From the NCBI GenBank assembly GCA_944332535.1, contig CALVKE010000016.1:1-32631 (forward strand): a DNA stretch of 32,631 nt, written 5' to 3'. The DNA comes from an uncultured Bacilli bacterium. GTDB lineage: Bacteria > Bacillota_I > Bacilli_A > RF39 > UBA660. The position numbers and the translations under genes were made by a program. Below are positions 3,115 to 29,313 of this stretch, one piece after another (the first letter of the stretch is position 1; each line of letters begins with the position of its first letter). Under the pieces are notes generated by a model that saw nothing but the letters and a program-made list of their open reading frames with translations, made no database searches and had not been told where the DNA came from.

Positions 3115-4620
3115 ATGAAAGAAAGATTTTGTTTATTAAATAAGGGAACTTATGTATTGTTGGCAACTGCTTTCGTAAGTAGTCTTTCCCTTCTAATTTA
3201 TCAGATATATACAATAGGAGATCAAGTCACCTTTTGGGGAAATATTTTAGTTGCTGTTTTTGTCCTTCTCATCTATGTTGGTTTTTTAGCTTTAGCAATG
3301 CGTTCTAGTGATCGAAGAAGTGAAAAAGCAATTATTGTTACTTCTGTTTTGTTTCTTTGCTTCAATATTTTTGAATTTCTTGTTTCTTCCGGAATCTTAG
3401 TGTTACCGGGAAATGCCGTCGTTGAGAATTTTTATGGAAAAGATATTTCCGAGGTGGCCAAATGGGCTGAAGAAAAGAATGTTGCTCTGGAACAGGTTTA
3501 TGTTCACTCTGAGACGATGGAAAAATATAAAGTGTTAGCACAGGATGTGGAGCCAGGAACTTTGGTGAAAAAAATTACAAAACTTGTCGTTACCGTCTCG
3601 GATGGACCCGATGAAGAAGTAGAGTTAACGGTTCCTAATATGATCGGTTGGAATTTAGATGAGGCCCTCGCCTTTTTGGAAGAAAATCATTTTACGAACG
3701 TAACGATTGATTTTGAATATAGTTCCAAGGAAAAAGATACTATTATTAAGCAAAGTATTAGTAGTGCTGAAATCAAAAGAAATGAAGCAATCTCTTTGGT
3801 TTCTTCCTTAGGAGAAGAAGGGGTAAAACAAACAGTAAAAATGGAAGACTTGGTTGGATTAGATTTATTCCATGCGACTATTTTCCTTAGACGAAACGAT
3901 TTAAACTATGAAATTCAATATGTTTATCGCGAAGAGGAAGAAGAAAATACTGTAGTATCCCAAAGTGTTGATGAGGGAGTTACTGTTAGCAATCAGGACG
4001 AAGATCCTATTATTATTGCTGTTGTAAAAAAAGAAGCTGTGACGGTTCCTCATTTAGAAGATATGGATACGGATGATATTGAAAAATGGGCCAAAGAAAA
4101 TCAATTGAGTGTAGAATTTGAAGAGGCTTACGACGATACCATTGCCAGCGGAAAAGTTATTTCTTCTACAATTATTGCTGGAGAAATTGTGAAACCAAAC
4201 TCTTCTTTCCGAGTTACCATTTCCAAAGGTCCTTTAAAAATGATTGGTTTTGATAATGTGGATGATTTTAGAAAATGGGCCGAAGAAAATGAAGTTACTT
4301 ATCATATTGATTATCAATTTAGTAATACCGTTGCCAATGGAAAGTTGATCTCCTCTTCTCACGAGGAAGGAGAAATTATCAAAAACAAAGATACCGTGCG
4401 ATTAGTAATTTCTCAAGGAGGAAATACAACCATTCCAAATTTTGTTGGAAAAACAAAAGCGGAAGCAGAAGATCTTTGTGAAGAACATCTTCTACGGTGT
4501 AGTTTTCAAACTGCTAGTTCGACGAGGGAAAAAGATACTGTAATCAAACAATCAATGCGAAGTGGTAGTACCGTACCACAAGAAACTTCTATTACTTTAA
4601 CACTAAGTCAAGGACAATAA
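3115..4620 (+). CDS. Membrane protein with six PASTA repeats and no kinase domain
   Basis: A protein of 501 residues with three hydrophobic helices (about 11-34, 41-63, 71-96) and then only extracellular PASTA-type repeats: roughly 101-165, 170-233, 239-305, 308-373, 374-436 and 437-501. Repeats 2, 4 and 6 keep the opening VPN/VPH/IPN and most end in a VTVSDGP- or VTISKGP-like strand. PASTA domains bind muropeptides or peptidoglycan and normally form the sensor of PrkC/StkP kinases or the tail of class B PBPs. Here there is no kinase and no transpeptidase. ATG 3115 has an AAGGAG ribosome site. It is flanked by terminators, so it is probably monocistronic. A role as a wall-binding or septal scaffold is inference. 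Confidence 0.85.
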   Translation: MKERFCLLNKGTYVLLATAFVSSLSLLIYQIYTIGDQVTFWGNILVAVFVLLIYVGFLALAMRSSDRRSEKAIIVTSVLFLCFNIFEFLVSSGILVLPGNAVVENFYGKDISEVAKWAEEKNVALEQVYVHSETMEKYKVLAQDVEPGTLVKKITKLVVTVSDGPDEEVELTVPNMIGWNLDEALAFLEENHFTNVTIDFEYSSKEKDTIIKQSISSAEIKRNEAISLVSSLGEEGVKQTVKMEDLVGLDLFHATIFLRRNDLNYEIQYVYREEEEENTVVSQSVDEGVTVSNQDEDPIIIAVVKKEAVTVPHLEDMDTDDIEKWAKENQLSVEFEEAYDDTIASGKVISSTIIAGEIVKPNSSFRVTISKGPLKMIGFDNVDDFRKWAEENEVTYHIDYQFSNTVANGKLISSSHEEGEIIKNKDTVRLVISQGGNTTIPNFVGKTKAEAEDLCEEHLLRCSFQTASSTREKDTVIKQSMRSGSTVPQETSITLTLSQGQ

Positions 4621-4749
4621 TAAAAACCTCTCTTATTGATAGAATTAGATGACATCTAGAGCTTTAATATATGGGACAAAACGATGCCAAATCATTGTAT
4701 TATCCTTTTGAAAATGAGAGAAAAGAGAAAATTTACGAATGACAAAGTT
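4621..4749. other. Short gap between convergent genes
   Basis: Between the PASTA stop codon and the shared terminator there is no supported gene. A 6-bp inverted repeat around 4645-4657 is too short to interpret. Confidence 0.4.
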
Positions 4750-25841: not shown

Positions 25842-25873
25842 TAAAAAAGAAAAAGAGCGGGGAGCTCTTCTTT
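25842..25873 (-). terminator. spoIVA terminator
   Basis: Minus strand: AAGAGC, loop TCCCC, GCTCTT (25869-25864 with 25858-25853), extendable to about 9 bp through a G-U pair, then TTTCTTTTTT. The base of the stem touches the spoIVA stop codon (25872-25874). Confidence 0.8.
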
Positions 25874-27347
25874 ATAATACGATGGCAATCATATTGTTGG
25901 AACCTTTATTTACAATTTTGGTCAACGTATTTTGTAATTTGAAACGAATATTATCTGGCATCATATTGATCTTAGACTGTATTCCTTCTTGTACGATGGC
26001 ATCTAAACTTCGTCCAAAGATCTCGCTTTTCCAGATACTTCCAGGTTCTGCCTCGTAATCTTTCATCAGGTAATTAATTAATTCTTTGCTTTGCACTTCG
26101 CTTCCGATGATTGGTTCAAAAGTGGAGTTAACATCTACTCGAATCATGTGAATACTTGGAGCAGTGGCTTTTAATTTTACGCCAAAGCGACTTCCTTGTT
26201 TGGTAATTTCTGGAGTATCTAACTTCATGTCATCAATCGTTGGTGTTGCTACTCCATACCCTGTTTGTTTGACCATTTTTAAAGCAAATTTAATTTGATC
26301 GTATTCTTTTTTTGCTTCGTTTAACTCTTGGAATAAATTTAACAGTTCCGCACGATTCGTTACGTCGATATTGATAATTTCGGATAACACTTGATGATAA
26401 AGTTCATTCGGTGCTTCTAGCGAAATCGTTACTTCTCCGGTTGCAGGGTTCACATCCGATAAATAAGACTTACTGATTTCTGGAATATTCATAAAATGGG
26501 AAGTAATATTTTCAATATCTCTTAACTTATCTACTTCTACGACACTTTCACGAATGGCATCGATGAAACATTTTTTTACCGGATGTTTTGGATTTAAAAT
26601 AGCAATCCATTCTGGCAAGTTTACTTTTACATCTACGACTGGGAATTCATAAAGGGCTTCTCTTAGAATGTCATACATATCTTTGTTATTCATGTTTTCA
26701 ATATTCATCGGAAGAACTGGTACATTATGTTCTTCTTTTAGGCGTTCTGCTATTTTTTCGGTTTCTGGAATCATTGGATGTGTACTATTTAATAATACAA
26801 TAAAAGGTTTGCCAATTTCTTTTAATTCGCGAATTACTCGCTCTTCCGCTTCAATATAATCACTTCGTTTAAAGTCCCCGATACTACCATCCGTCGTTAC
26901 GACAATTCCAATGGTAGAATGATCTTTGATTACTTTTTCTGTTCCCACTTCTGCCGCTTCTACAAAACTAATCGCATCATCATACCATGGTGTTTTTACA
27001 AGTCTTGGGCCATTTTCATCTTCTGCTCCCTTGGCATCGTTAATGAGATACCCAACACAATCAATCAATCGAATATTGCAAGAAAAGTCATCAATTTTAA
27101 TTTTCGCTGCATTGTTGGGTACAAACTTTGGTTCTGTAGTCATGATGGTCTTTCCACCTGCACTTTGAGGAATTTCATCTAACGCTCTTTTTCGCTCGTA
27201 TTCATCTTCGATATTCGGAACAATTAAATTTTCTACGACCTTCTTAATAAACGTACTTTTTCCGGTTCGAACGGCTCCTACTACTCCTAGATAGATGTCT
27301 CCTCCTGTTCTTTCTGCAATATTTTTAATGATATCTTTCTTTTCCAT
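25872..27347 (-). CDS. spoIVA: Stage IV sporulation protein A (coat basement ATPase)
   Basis: This 491-residue protein is made in the mother cell; it polymerises with ATP hydrolysis on the forespore surface and is the base layer of the spore coat. The length is essentially that of the Bacillus protein. Walker A GAVRTGKST is at 24-32 with K30, and an RLIDCVGY switch-like motif and the NSTHP segment follow. The conserved C-terminus (NKGSNNMIAIVL) is intact. The start is ATG 27347, with a weak ribosome site (AGAGTGGAT). It stands alone between a terminator upstream (27394-27427) and its own downstream. Mother-cell sigma-E control would be expected; a poor match (TTCTATT, 13-bp spacer, CGTATAGTT) is visible at about 27377-27421. 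Confidence 0.97.
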   Translation of the reverse strand: MEKKDIIKNIAERTGGDIYLGVVGAVRTGKSTFIKKVVENLIVPNIEDEYERKRALDEIPQSAGGKTIMTTEPKFVPNNAAKIKIDDFSCNIRLIDCVGYLINDAKGAEDENGPRLVKTPWYDDAISFVEAAEVGTEKVIKDHSTIGIVVTTDGSIGDFKRSDYIEAEERVIRELKEIGKPFIVLLNSTHPMIPETEKIAERLKEEHNVPVLPMNIENMNNKDMYDILREALYEFPVVDVKVNLPEWIAILNPKHPVKKCFIDAIRESVVEVDKLRDIENITSHFMNIPEISKSYLSDVNPATGEVTISLEAPNELYHQVLSEIINIDVTNRAELLNLFQELNEAKKEYDQIKFALKMVKQTGYGVATPTIDDMKLDTPEITKQGSRFGVKLKATAPSIHMIRVDVNSTFEPIIGSEVQSKELINYLMKDYEAEPGSIWKSEIFGRSLDAIVQEGIQSKINMMPDNIRFKLQNTLTKIVNKGSNNMIAIVL

Positions 27348-27393: not shown

Positions 27394-27427
27394 GAAACAA
27401 AAAATAGAACTTTTTCGTTCTATTTTT
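27394..27427 (-). terminator. spoVIF terminator
   Basis: On the minus strand AAAAATAGAAC (27427-27417) pairs perfectly with GTTCTATTTTT (27410-27400) over 11 bp with a 6-nt loop, followed by TGTTTC. It separates spoVIF from spoIVA. Confidence 0.75.
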
Positions 27428-27480: not shown

Positions 27481-27720
27481 TTAAAACATTTTATCAATAT
27501 CTTTTGGAATATTATCTTTTACGATCGTACTTACAATTTTATCCTCTTTTTCTTTGCTTACTGGTTTTCCTGTCATGTTACTAATCTCTTGAATGACATC
27601 CCTTAAAACTTTTTCATCTTTCATATTGGATTTTTGTAATTTATTCGCTAACGATAAAATCGTATCCTTGTTTACACTCGTTTTCTTTTCTACTTTGTTA
27701 AAAAAATTATCTCCAAACAT
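27481..27720 (-). CDS. spoVIF: Stage VI sporulation protein F-like
   Basis: This 79-residue protein matches the SpoVIF family in my reading: FFNKVEKKTSVNKD near the start, LANKLQKSNMKDEKVLRD in the middle, and GKPVSKEKEDKIV...NIPKDIDKMF at the end. In Bacillus SpoVIF is a mother-cell protein needed for late coat assembly under sigma-K/GerE. The start is ATG 27720, behind AGGAGG and seven T; the frame stays open to 27810, but that stretch is the upstream intergenic region. Upstream transcripts would fold the ribosome site into a 14-bp hairpin. It lies next to spoIVA, forming a small coat-gene pair. Confidence 0.85.
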   Translation of the reverse strand: MFGDNFFNKVEKKTSVNKDTILSLANKLQKSNMKDEKVLRDVIQEISNMTGKPVSKEKEDKIVSTIVKDNIPKDIDKMF

Positions 27721-27759
27721 AAAAAAACCTCCTACCACATTATATGTAGAAAGTTTTTT
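27721..27759 (-). terminator. Hairpin over the spoVIF ribosome site (terminator-like)
   Basis: On the minus strand AAAAAACTTTCTAC (27759-27746) pairs with GTAGGAGGTTTTTT (27735-27722) over 14 bp with two G-U pairs and a 10-nt loop. The 3' arm contains AGGAGG of spoVIF and merges with a seven-T run directly before the ATG. It could terminate readthrough from der, hide the ribosome site, or both. Confidence 0.65.
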
Positions 27760-27764
27760 ATGGT
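27738..27764 (-). promoter_or_regulatory. Candidate spoVIF promoter inside the hairpin
   Basis: CATATAATG (27746-27738) lies in the hairpin loop and the last base of the 5' arm, with ACC (27764-27762) 15 bases upstream. This resembles the sigma-K pattern of AC then CATA at about 16 bases; the sigma-A -35 (GAAACC) is poor. Transcription would start near 27732, at the ribosome site itself. Confidence 0.4.
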
Positions 27765-27772
27765 TTCGCACC

Positions 27773-28003
27773 TTATTGGAAAAAGCCATTTTTTTGATTA
27801 GACGCAGCAAGTACTTCTTGAAACAATTCTTCTCCTAATGCTTTTCGAAGTTTTTCGCGTCTTTTTCCGAATTCTTGGCATTGCTTTTGATAAGCTCCAA
27901 AATCAATCTGTTGTTTTTCAAATCGTTCGTCCAATAATTTTTGGGCGCGCTCTAAGCTTTCTAAACTTCTCTTTGCTTCCATCTTATCGCTTTTAAAAAA
28001 CAT
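27773..28003 (-). CDS. Small helical/coiled-coil protein, unknown
   Basis: A 76-residue, highly charged helical protein (SLESLERAQKLLDERFEKQQ followed by RREKLRKALGEELFQEVL) with Leu spacing that suggests a helical hairpin or short coiled coil. It starts two bases after the der stop, with AAAGGAG inside the end of der, so it is translated together with der. No family recognised. An association with the ribosome-assembly GTPase Der is suggested only by position. Confidence 0.65.
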   Translation of the reverse strand: MFFKSDKMEAKRSLESLERAQKLLDERFEKQQIDFGAYQKQCQEFGKRREKLRKALGEELFQEVLAASNQKNGFFQ

Positions 28004-28005
28004 AA

Positions 28006-29313
28006 TTATTCTTCTCCTTTATTTTTGAATTGAAGAAGGATGGGCGTTCCTTCAAAATCGAAATTTTCTCTTAATTTATTTTCTAAGTATCGTTCATAAG
28101 AAAAATGAACAAGCCCTTTATTATTTACATGGAAGGTAAATTTGGGAGGACAAACACCCGATTGATTGGCAAAGTAGATTTTTAAGCGTTTTCCTTTATA
28201 AGAAGGCGGTAAATTAAGAGCATACGCTTCTTCGATCACTTCGTTTAAGACACTTGTTTTTATTTCTCTTGTAATGTTATTGGCAACTTTTAATACTTCT
28301 GGCATTAACGTATGAAGACGTTTTTTTGTAAGGGCAGACAAGAACACAATGGGAGCATAGGTAATAAATTGAAATTCACTTCGAACAAGCTTCGTATATT
28401 CTTTGATGTCTTTCTTTTCTACTTTATCCCATTTATTAACGACGATGATTAAGCCTTTTCCCTTTTCTAAGGCATACCCTGCAATGTGCTTGTCATGTTC
28501 GATAATTCCCTCTTCGGCATTGATTACCAAAAGACAAATATCGCATCGATCAATTGCTGTCAGGCTTCTTAGTAAACTATATTTTTCTACTGCTTCGAAG
28601 ACTTTTCCTTTTTTTCGCATCCCCGCGGTATCGATTAGTACGAATTCTTCTTTGTCGTAGGTAAAGACGGTGTCGATAGCATCTCTTGTCGTTCCAGCCG
28701 TCGAGCTGACAATCACTCTATTTTCCATTAGAAGAGCATTTACTAAGCTACTTTTTCCAACATTTGGTCTTCCAATCACCGCAAGTTTTAACCGAGTATC
28801 CTCCGGTTGCTCTTCTATTTTACGAAAATCGCGAACGATACTATCCATTAGTTCTACAAAACCAATGTTATGCTCTCCCGAAACGGGAATATATTCTGAA
28901 AAACCTAATTCGTAAAAGTCATACATGTGTTCTTTACTTTCTCTCGTATCGATTTTATTAATCACAACAATAATTCTTTTTTGACTTTTGCGAAGCAAAT
29001 CTCTTACTACTAAATCGTTTTGCGTAAGACCTTCTTTTCCGTCGACAATAAATAGAACAACGTCACTTTTTTCAATGGCAATTTCAGCTTGTATTTTGAT
29101 TTCTTCTTGAAAAGCATCATCCCCTAAATCGATTCCTCCAGTATCGATCAAATGGAATTGATAAGGGCCATAAGTGGCATCAGAGTATAGCCGATCTCTA
29201 GTAACTCCTGGAGTATCTTCGATAATGGCAATCTTTTTCCCAGCAATACGATTAAAAATCGTACTTTTTCCAACGTTTGGTCTTCCAACTAAGGCGACAG
29301 TGGGTAACTTCAT
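28006..29313 (-). CDS. der: Ribosome-assembly GTPase Der (EngA)
   Basis: This 435-residue protein has tandem GTPase domains for 50S subunit assembly. Both P-loops are GRPNVGKS, at 10-17 and 181-188; DTGG and NKID occur in the first domain and DTAGMRKKGK and NKWDKVEKKD in the second. A C-terminal KH-like domain runs from about 345 to the end. The start is ATG 29313, behind AAGGAGG; the seven codons upstream in frame overlap the ribosome site. Its promoter lies within the terminator of the previous gene. der near spoIVA and HU is a Bacillus-type arrangement, but gpsA, usually between them, is missing here. Confidence 0.97.
   Translation of the reverse strand: MKLPTVALVGRPNVGKSTIFNRIAGKKIAIIEDTPGVTRDRLYSDATYGPYQFHLIDTGGIDLGDDAFQEEIKIQAEIAIEKSDVVLFIVDGKEGLTQNDLVVRDLLRKSQKRIIVVINKIDTRESKEHMYDFYELGFSEYIPVSGEHNIGFVELMDSIVRDFRKIEEQPEDTRLKLAVIGRPNVGKSSLVNALLMENRVIVSSTAGTTRDAIDTVFTYDKEEFVLIDTAGMRKKGKVFEAVEKYSLLRSLTAIDRCDICLLVINAEEGIIEHDKHIAGYALEKGKGLIIVVNKWDKVEKKDIKEYTKLVRSEFQFITYAPIVFLSALTKKRLHTLMPEVLKVANNITREIKTSVLNEVIEEAYALNLPPSYKGKRLKIYFANQSGVCPPKFTFHVNNKGLVHFSYERYLENKLRENFDFEGTPILLQFKNKGEE

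Follow-up and report, generated by a model that had tools for sequence, protein, structure and literature searches.

Known and proposed insulation of genes against read-through transcription

In phage T4, gene e (and likewise I-TevI, soc and 49) is carried on long transcripts that sequester its ribosome site; a stage-specific promoter just upstream gives RNA without the 5' strand, and this RNA is well translated (PMC3014915). In Bacillus subtilis, translation of sigG on spoIIG read-through transcripts is proposed to be blocked by a hairpin, one that transcripts started at the sigG promoter are unable to form (PMC5942855). A second, small hairpin, conserved in Bacilli, occludes the sigG ribosome-binding site (RBS) within the gene's own transcript and has a dampening effect of 2-4 fold (PMC5942855). 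IS200, as represented by a secondary citation, uses RNA stem-loops both to stop transcripts that enter from outside and to mask the ribosome site (cited in PMC3196728).

The locus described here belongs to an uncultured Bacilli member with a 1.12 Mb genome in 96 contigs; the window is the whole 32,631-nucleotide stretch of DNA analysed, and statements about the genome beyond it are based on pattern searches. A hairpin lies directly before the sporulation gene spoVIF. It probably silences read-through RNA while accommodating a sporulation promoter, with weak intrinsic terminator activity added where its U-tract is long.

Gene order and anatomy of the hairpin

The minus-strand gene order is der, a 76-aa ORF, spoVIF and spoIVA (Table 1). 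After the stop codon of the 76-aa ORF (27775-27773), the 5' arm follows at about 14 nt and the spoVIF ATG at 52 nt, and no terminator was found between this ORF and the hairpin. Pfam and NCBIfam gave no convincing match for the ORF, which is conserved: ORFs of similar size lie between der and spoVIF in most of the family. On the other side, the classical terminator between spoVIF and spoIVA makes spoVIF look monocistronic, a transcription unit of its own.

Table 1. Features of the spoVIF locus, in window coordinates
Feature	Position	Strand	Evidence
spoIVA	25872-27347	-	
Classical AT-rich terminator 3' of spoVIF, AAAAATAGAAC-GAAAAA-GTTCTATTTTTT	27399-27427	-	Fold of spoVIF-spoIVA gap
spoVIF, 79 aa	27481-27720	-	Pfam PF14069, 4.2e-24
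U7: SD-ATG spacer, 3' side of A-U stem, terminator-like U-tract	27721-27727	-	
3' arm GTAGGAGGTTTTTT	27722-27735	-	Fold, alignment
Shine-Dalgarno (SD) AGGAGG, buried in 3' arm	27728-27733	-	SD-exposure folds
Hairpin loop ATATAATGTG, 10 nt	27736-27745	-	Fold
-10 element CATATAAT	27739-27746	-	CATA and final T conserved in family leaders
5' arm AAAAAACTTTCTAC, inside promoter spacer	27746-27759	-	Folds; conserved pyrimidine arm, covariation
Core anti-SD CTTTCTAC within 5' arm	27753-27746	-	
AC of sigma-K-type -35, 16 nt before CATA	27763-27764	-	Sequence; family AC position; PMC517825 spacing
76-aa ORF, co-directional, upstream of spoVIF	27773-28003	-	
der, ribosome biogenesis GTPase, housekeeping; putative read-through source	28006-29313	-	TIGR03594, 1.4e-170

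The initial annotation had described a 14-bp minus-strand hairpin with two G-U pairs, a -10-like sequence in its loop and adjoining 5' arm, and AGGAGG in its 3' arm followed by seven U beside the ATG. The hairpin proved exact to the base, and the coordinates bear out the remaining elements. Its 14 pairs are consecutive, the G-U pairs being T27752-G27729 and T27750-G27731. The C of the -10 element forms the loop-closing pair, ATATAAT sits in the loop, and the CAT directly 3' of the AC shares bases with the beginning of the A-rich arm region. The spoVIF ATG begins at 27720, after the 3' arm and one further T.

For the 44-nt RNA, the fold energy is -12.7 kcal/mol (z = -3.6), against a shuffle mean of -5.1; none of 200 shuffles did as well. 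On the opposite strand, the same segment reaches only -5.1 kcal/mol (z = -0.6) because the G-U pairs turn into A-C, as had been argued from the letters at the outset. Since the segment was chosen for its hairpin look, the single-sequence z overstates the case, and it is the comparative evidence given below (arm swap, covariation) that excludes chance. The 8-bp core stem alone contributes -6.0 kcal/mol, and A6:U7 pairing supplies half of the stability; pairing can be extended to the AUG via a bulge, at -13.7 to -14.4 kcal/mol.

A putative sigma-K-type promoter with its -10 in the loop

Sigma-K promoters have AC at -35 and a -10 that starts with CATA; sigma-E promoters are unlike them, with a gap of about 12 and a longer -35. 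Work by Kuwana in 2003 is said to have placed B. subtilis spoVIF under sigma-K control. The sigma-K -10 lies about 15 nt after its short -35 (PMC517825), and the window promoter, AC-N16-CATATAAT, fits the pattern of -35 AC, a gap of about 14-16 and -10 CATAnnnT.

Comparison covered 97 distinct spoVIF leaders from the same family (f1), 96 of them anchorable on the -10. CATA is present in 94 of the 96, as is the T at position 8 of CATAnnnT, and nothing else in these leaders is conserved as well as the -10 in the loop. An AC dinucleotide lies 15-16 nt before CATA in 60/96, and AGGAGG follows CATA at 13 nt in 72/96 and at 14 nt in 16/96. This tight spacing between -10 and SD has six matches in the window genome, and only the one at spoVIF has the hairpin. 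A sigK-type gene is present at C7, scoring 297.5 bits against the sigma-K model, just under the cut-off of 298.65, with the sigE model scoring lower; a separate sigE-like gene lies at C73. A sigma-70 scan called no promoter at the hairpin site, and for that reason the TATAAT within the element was dropped as a candidate sigma-A -10.

The earlier proposal of a sporulation promoter can thus be refined to the sigma-K type by motif, with CATA kept almost throughout the family. The promoter appears to belong to a mother-cell sigma factor, and by motif the factor in use would be sigma-K. With the -10 ending at 27739, transcription is predicted to start at about 27734-27732, at or just before the SD.

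Predicted silencing of read-through RNA and the role of the U-tract

The position of the 5' arm between -35 and -10 means that promoter-started RNA cannot contain it, and that der RNA does. In the window leader, the computed probability that the SD is unpaired is 0.0 in long RNA and 1.0 in promoter-started RNA; thermodynamic folds of 62 hairpin leaders give means of 0.06 and 0.71, respectively. Anatomy and computed SD exposure agree with the T4 gene e logic that the initial annotation had invoked. Read-through RNA from der and the 76-aa ORF would carry the pyrimidine-rich 5' arm, which would fold onto the spoVIF SD and leave the gene untranslated; at the U7 after the stem, some polymerases would probably terminate. 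Mother-cell RNA polymerase would recognise the AC and the -10 in the loop, start about 6 nt downstream and make mRNA without the 5' arm, with an open ribosome site. That the spoVIF product comes from the sporulation promoter only is a prediction of this model. The folds ignore ribosomes, and a ribosome terminating at the stop codon of the 76-aa ORF, so close to the 5' arm, might open the stem. Transcription in Bacillus is of the runaway kind, with polymerase moving ahead of the ribosomes (PMC13323073), and this would favour folding of the stem before they arrive.

How far termination contributes can be judged from the relatives. The T-run of the spacer averages 5.1 in hairpin leaders and 2.7 in those without hairpin (p 5e-8); being longer where the hairpin exists, it indicates that termination probably contributes. 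Of the GC-rich stem, short loop and adjoining U-tract of an intrinsic terminator, the window hairpin has the U7, but its 8-bp core reaches only -6.0 kcal/mol and its loop is 10 nt long; U-tracts are shorter in many relatives, and a terminator scan of the window did not pick the hairpin up. Conserved hairpins also occur without a U-tract, as in GGTGATAAAG (L167), GAGGTGAAAGTG (L209) and GGAGGTTTTATA (L107), and hairpin leaders of family f11 have four T only. SD sequestration is therefore the common denominator, which ranks untranslated, partly terminated read-through first and a mainly terminating hairpin second.

That second reading holds that the hairpin primarily serves the upstream operon as its intrinsic terminator and was pushed by genome compaction onto the spoVIF promoter and SD, with SD burial as a by-product. 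It draws on the longer T-run, on the near exclusion between the hairpin and classical upstream terminators, and on the MntP/YtaF-like gene behind spoIIR (both described below), where SD-in-hairpin and T-tract recur and CATA is not kept in the loop. It is nevertheless unlikely, given the conserved hairpins with no U-tract or a short one and the GC-poor core stem of the window; moreover, there is no need for a terminator to stop precisely at the SD.

In sequestering the SD by a stem that includes U-G pairs, the spoVIF hairpin resembles RNA thermometers. A condition-dependent switch on the spoVIF mRNA itself (thermosensor or ligand riboswitch) is still highly improbable, because RNA from the spoVIF promoter cannot include the 5' arm, which precedes the -10; a search of the window against Rfam (riboswitch, thermometer and other leaders) also gave no match above the gathering score.

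Conservation and covariation in family leaders

Among the family leaders, the mean MFE z is -2.7, and most keep an SD-complementary 5' arm that lies wholly between -35 and -10. The hairpin is present at spoVIF in 63.5%, against 5.7% of the 35 AGGAGG-bearing starts of other genes in these loci. In the 96 leaders, the SD pairs with the stretch 5' of CATA at a mean probability of 0.78, against 0.50 after shuffling of the arm. Leaders fold at -12.8 kcal/mol with their own 5' arm and at -9.4 kcal/mol with arms swapped between genomes (mean cost 3.3, p 1e-9).

AGGAGG is fixed, so pairs inside the SD cannot covary and the informative pairs are those outside it. At the first pair beyond the SD, A-U, U-A, G-U, U-G, G-C and C-G are all seen, and pairing is kept above shuffles (p 0.0005); several further positions outside the SD are nominally significant (p 0.0005-0.014). 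When 42 leaders with the hairpin were aligned without gaps, 84% of cells were paired; sliding the partner by 1-3 columns lowered this to 50-59%. The covariation score of 0.216 is reached by 0 of 500 shuffles. A check was run on whether stem bases vary freely among relatives, and the opposite was found: the anti-SD arm is kept and covaries. By this comparative evidence, the spoVIF hairpin is not due to chance and is maintained by selection.

These results bear on two further readings. The inverted repeat overlaps the -10 and spacer, as it would if a sporulation regulator bound the promoter DNA there. In hairpin-bearing leaders, however, the sense strand folds at -13.4 kcal/mol against -8.9 for the antisense (p 2e-9), and a structure that is more stable in RNA of the coding strand than in the complementary RNA argues for RNA rather than a DNA site. 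Frequent U-G pairs, which are A-C on the other strand, a loop length that varies between families, and pairing kept outside the SD where sequence is not, likewise leave a DNA site with very little probability. Chance pairing of a pyrimidine-rich promoter spacer with AGGAGG in an AT-rich genome would account for the 0.50 that same-composition shuffled arms already reach, yet it is scarcely credible when own arms outdo both shuffled and swapped arms, covariation extends beyond the SD, control AGGAGG starts so rarely carry the hairpin, and the search pattern described below has no matches in reversed form.

Distribution across the Bacilli

The comparison was widened to 11 further families of the class with 60 more spoVIF leaders, 59 of which were scored. 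The same anatomy occurs in f8, f11 and f21 and in single or few members of f3, f5, f18, f19 and f24. In f8 and f11, CATA is mostly followed by the SD at a distance of 24-28 nt, and stems are longer, with energies down to -27 kcal/mol; with spacing and stem so different, the element is not merely inherited letter by letter. In the outgroup loci that were read, the upstream gene is der in f24, as in f1, gpsA-like in f3, f8, f11, f16, f18 and f21 (by eye, no profile search), and unrelated in f5 and f19.

Across 155 leaders, 2 have both hairpin and upstream terminator, 86 the hairpin only, 27 the terminator only and 40 neither. Classical upstream terminators are found in most of f5 and f16 and in several f1 members, and the hairpin is absent there. 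The exclusion is strong by Fisher's test (7e-10), a count that ignores relatedness; under a laxer hairpin definition (pr>0.6, MFE<=-8) the raw p is 0.012. A test of independent pairs leaves about 3 informative pairs (2.8 opposite, 0.2 same; p 0.25) and is no better class-wide, so a swap between hairpin and terminator is suggestive and not significant after phylogenetic correction. Some relatives, including most of f13, have neither hairpin nor detected terminator, which means that silencing is not essential everywhere.

A broader proposal is an interchangeable insulator across the class: compact Bacilli would guard late sporulation genes behind housekeeping genes either by a terminator or by the superimposed element of 45 nt, kept or re-evolved in several families with differing hairpin sizes, and with its SD-in-hairpin half reused elsewhere. 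This proposal is about as likely as not.

Similar leaders at other genes

The pattern of pyrimidine arm, CATA -10, 13 nt and SD has 37 matches in 186 family genomes, against 0 for the reversed control. Some of the matches lie at probable sporulation genes, identified by eye as SPOCS/SpoVID-like and YabP-like (L223, L225, L226, L231, L234, L236). There, a classical terminator has its T-tract running up to CATA or close to it, with AGGAGG 13 nt further on, and these matches were rejected as hairpin cases. Such genes appear to share the same ultra-short sporulation leader and to have ordinary insulation.

At the MntP/YtaF-like gene behind spoIIR (spoIIR assigned by eye; relatives L238-L267), SD-in-hairpin with a T-tract is found in 13/24 leaders and CATA is not conserved. 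The copy in the window genome (L239 / L275, C75 ~3300-3346) reads CCTTCTATC...GATAGGAGGTTTTTTT ATG, with T7 after the hairpin. In the same genome, a tatD-like leader (L273, C62 ~4650-4696) has the hairpin CTCTATGATAT...ATCATGGAG, then T7 and ATG; the hairpin contains TGATATAATG, which is extended -10-like and vegetative, and reaches -17.1 kcal/mol in a 53-nt fold.

Meaning and relation to known systems

In spore-forming gut Bacilli, spoVIF read-through transcripts should stay silent and the sporulation transcript should be translated. With silencing as predicted, the locus shows that a sporulation gene can sit downstream of housekeeping genes in constant transcription and yet stay unexpressed in growing cells, with minimal DNA and no protein regulator. 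Two predictions follow: a -10 inside an SD-sequestering loop would mark genes with silent read-through RNA, and operon calls and RNA-seq coverage at such genes would overstate protein expression.

A literature search did not find the element at spoVIF. The apparent novelty is that sigma-K promoter, anti-SD, SD and U-tract overlap in some 45 nt, and that this arrangement is conserved and covaries at one sporulation gene across families. IS200, as far as the secondary citation describes it, concerns transposase genes and uses two separate stem-loops, whereas at spoVIF one element appears to combine the roles. IS10-type elements have similar protection against impinging transcription. The small sigG RBS hairpin differs in that the spoVIF promoter transcript lacks the 5' arm.

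As in T4 gene e, long RNA is closed and promoter RNA open, at spoVIF by computation. Gene e uses the phage late promoter TATAAATA and spoVIF a promoter of the bacterial sporulation sigma type; unlike in gene e, the -10 lies in the loop, the spacer encodes the 5' arm and the U-tract is the SD-ATG spacer. Silencing of gene e was measured, at about 100-fold, whereas that of spoVIF is predicted from sequence. The closer precedent is the read-through hairpin of sigG, likewise a sporulation gene downstream of other genes. That hairpin is very large (20+ bp) and goes with a sigma-F/G promoter, whereas the spoVIF hairpin is compact, coincides with promoter and SD and, unlike that of sigG, is documented by covariation across many genera. 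A logic established in phage T4 and suggested for a single B. subtilis gene thereby gains a probable counterpart at spoVIF, where the element is conserved and covaries in many genera.
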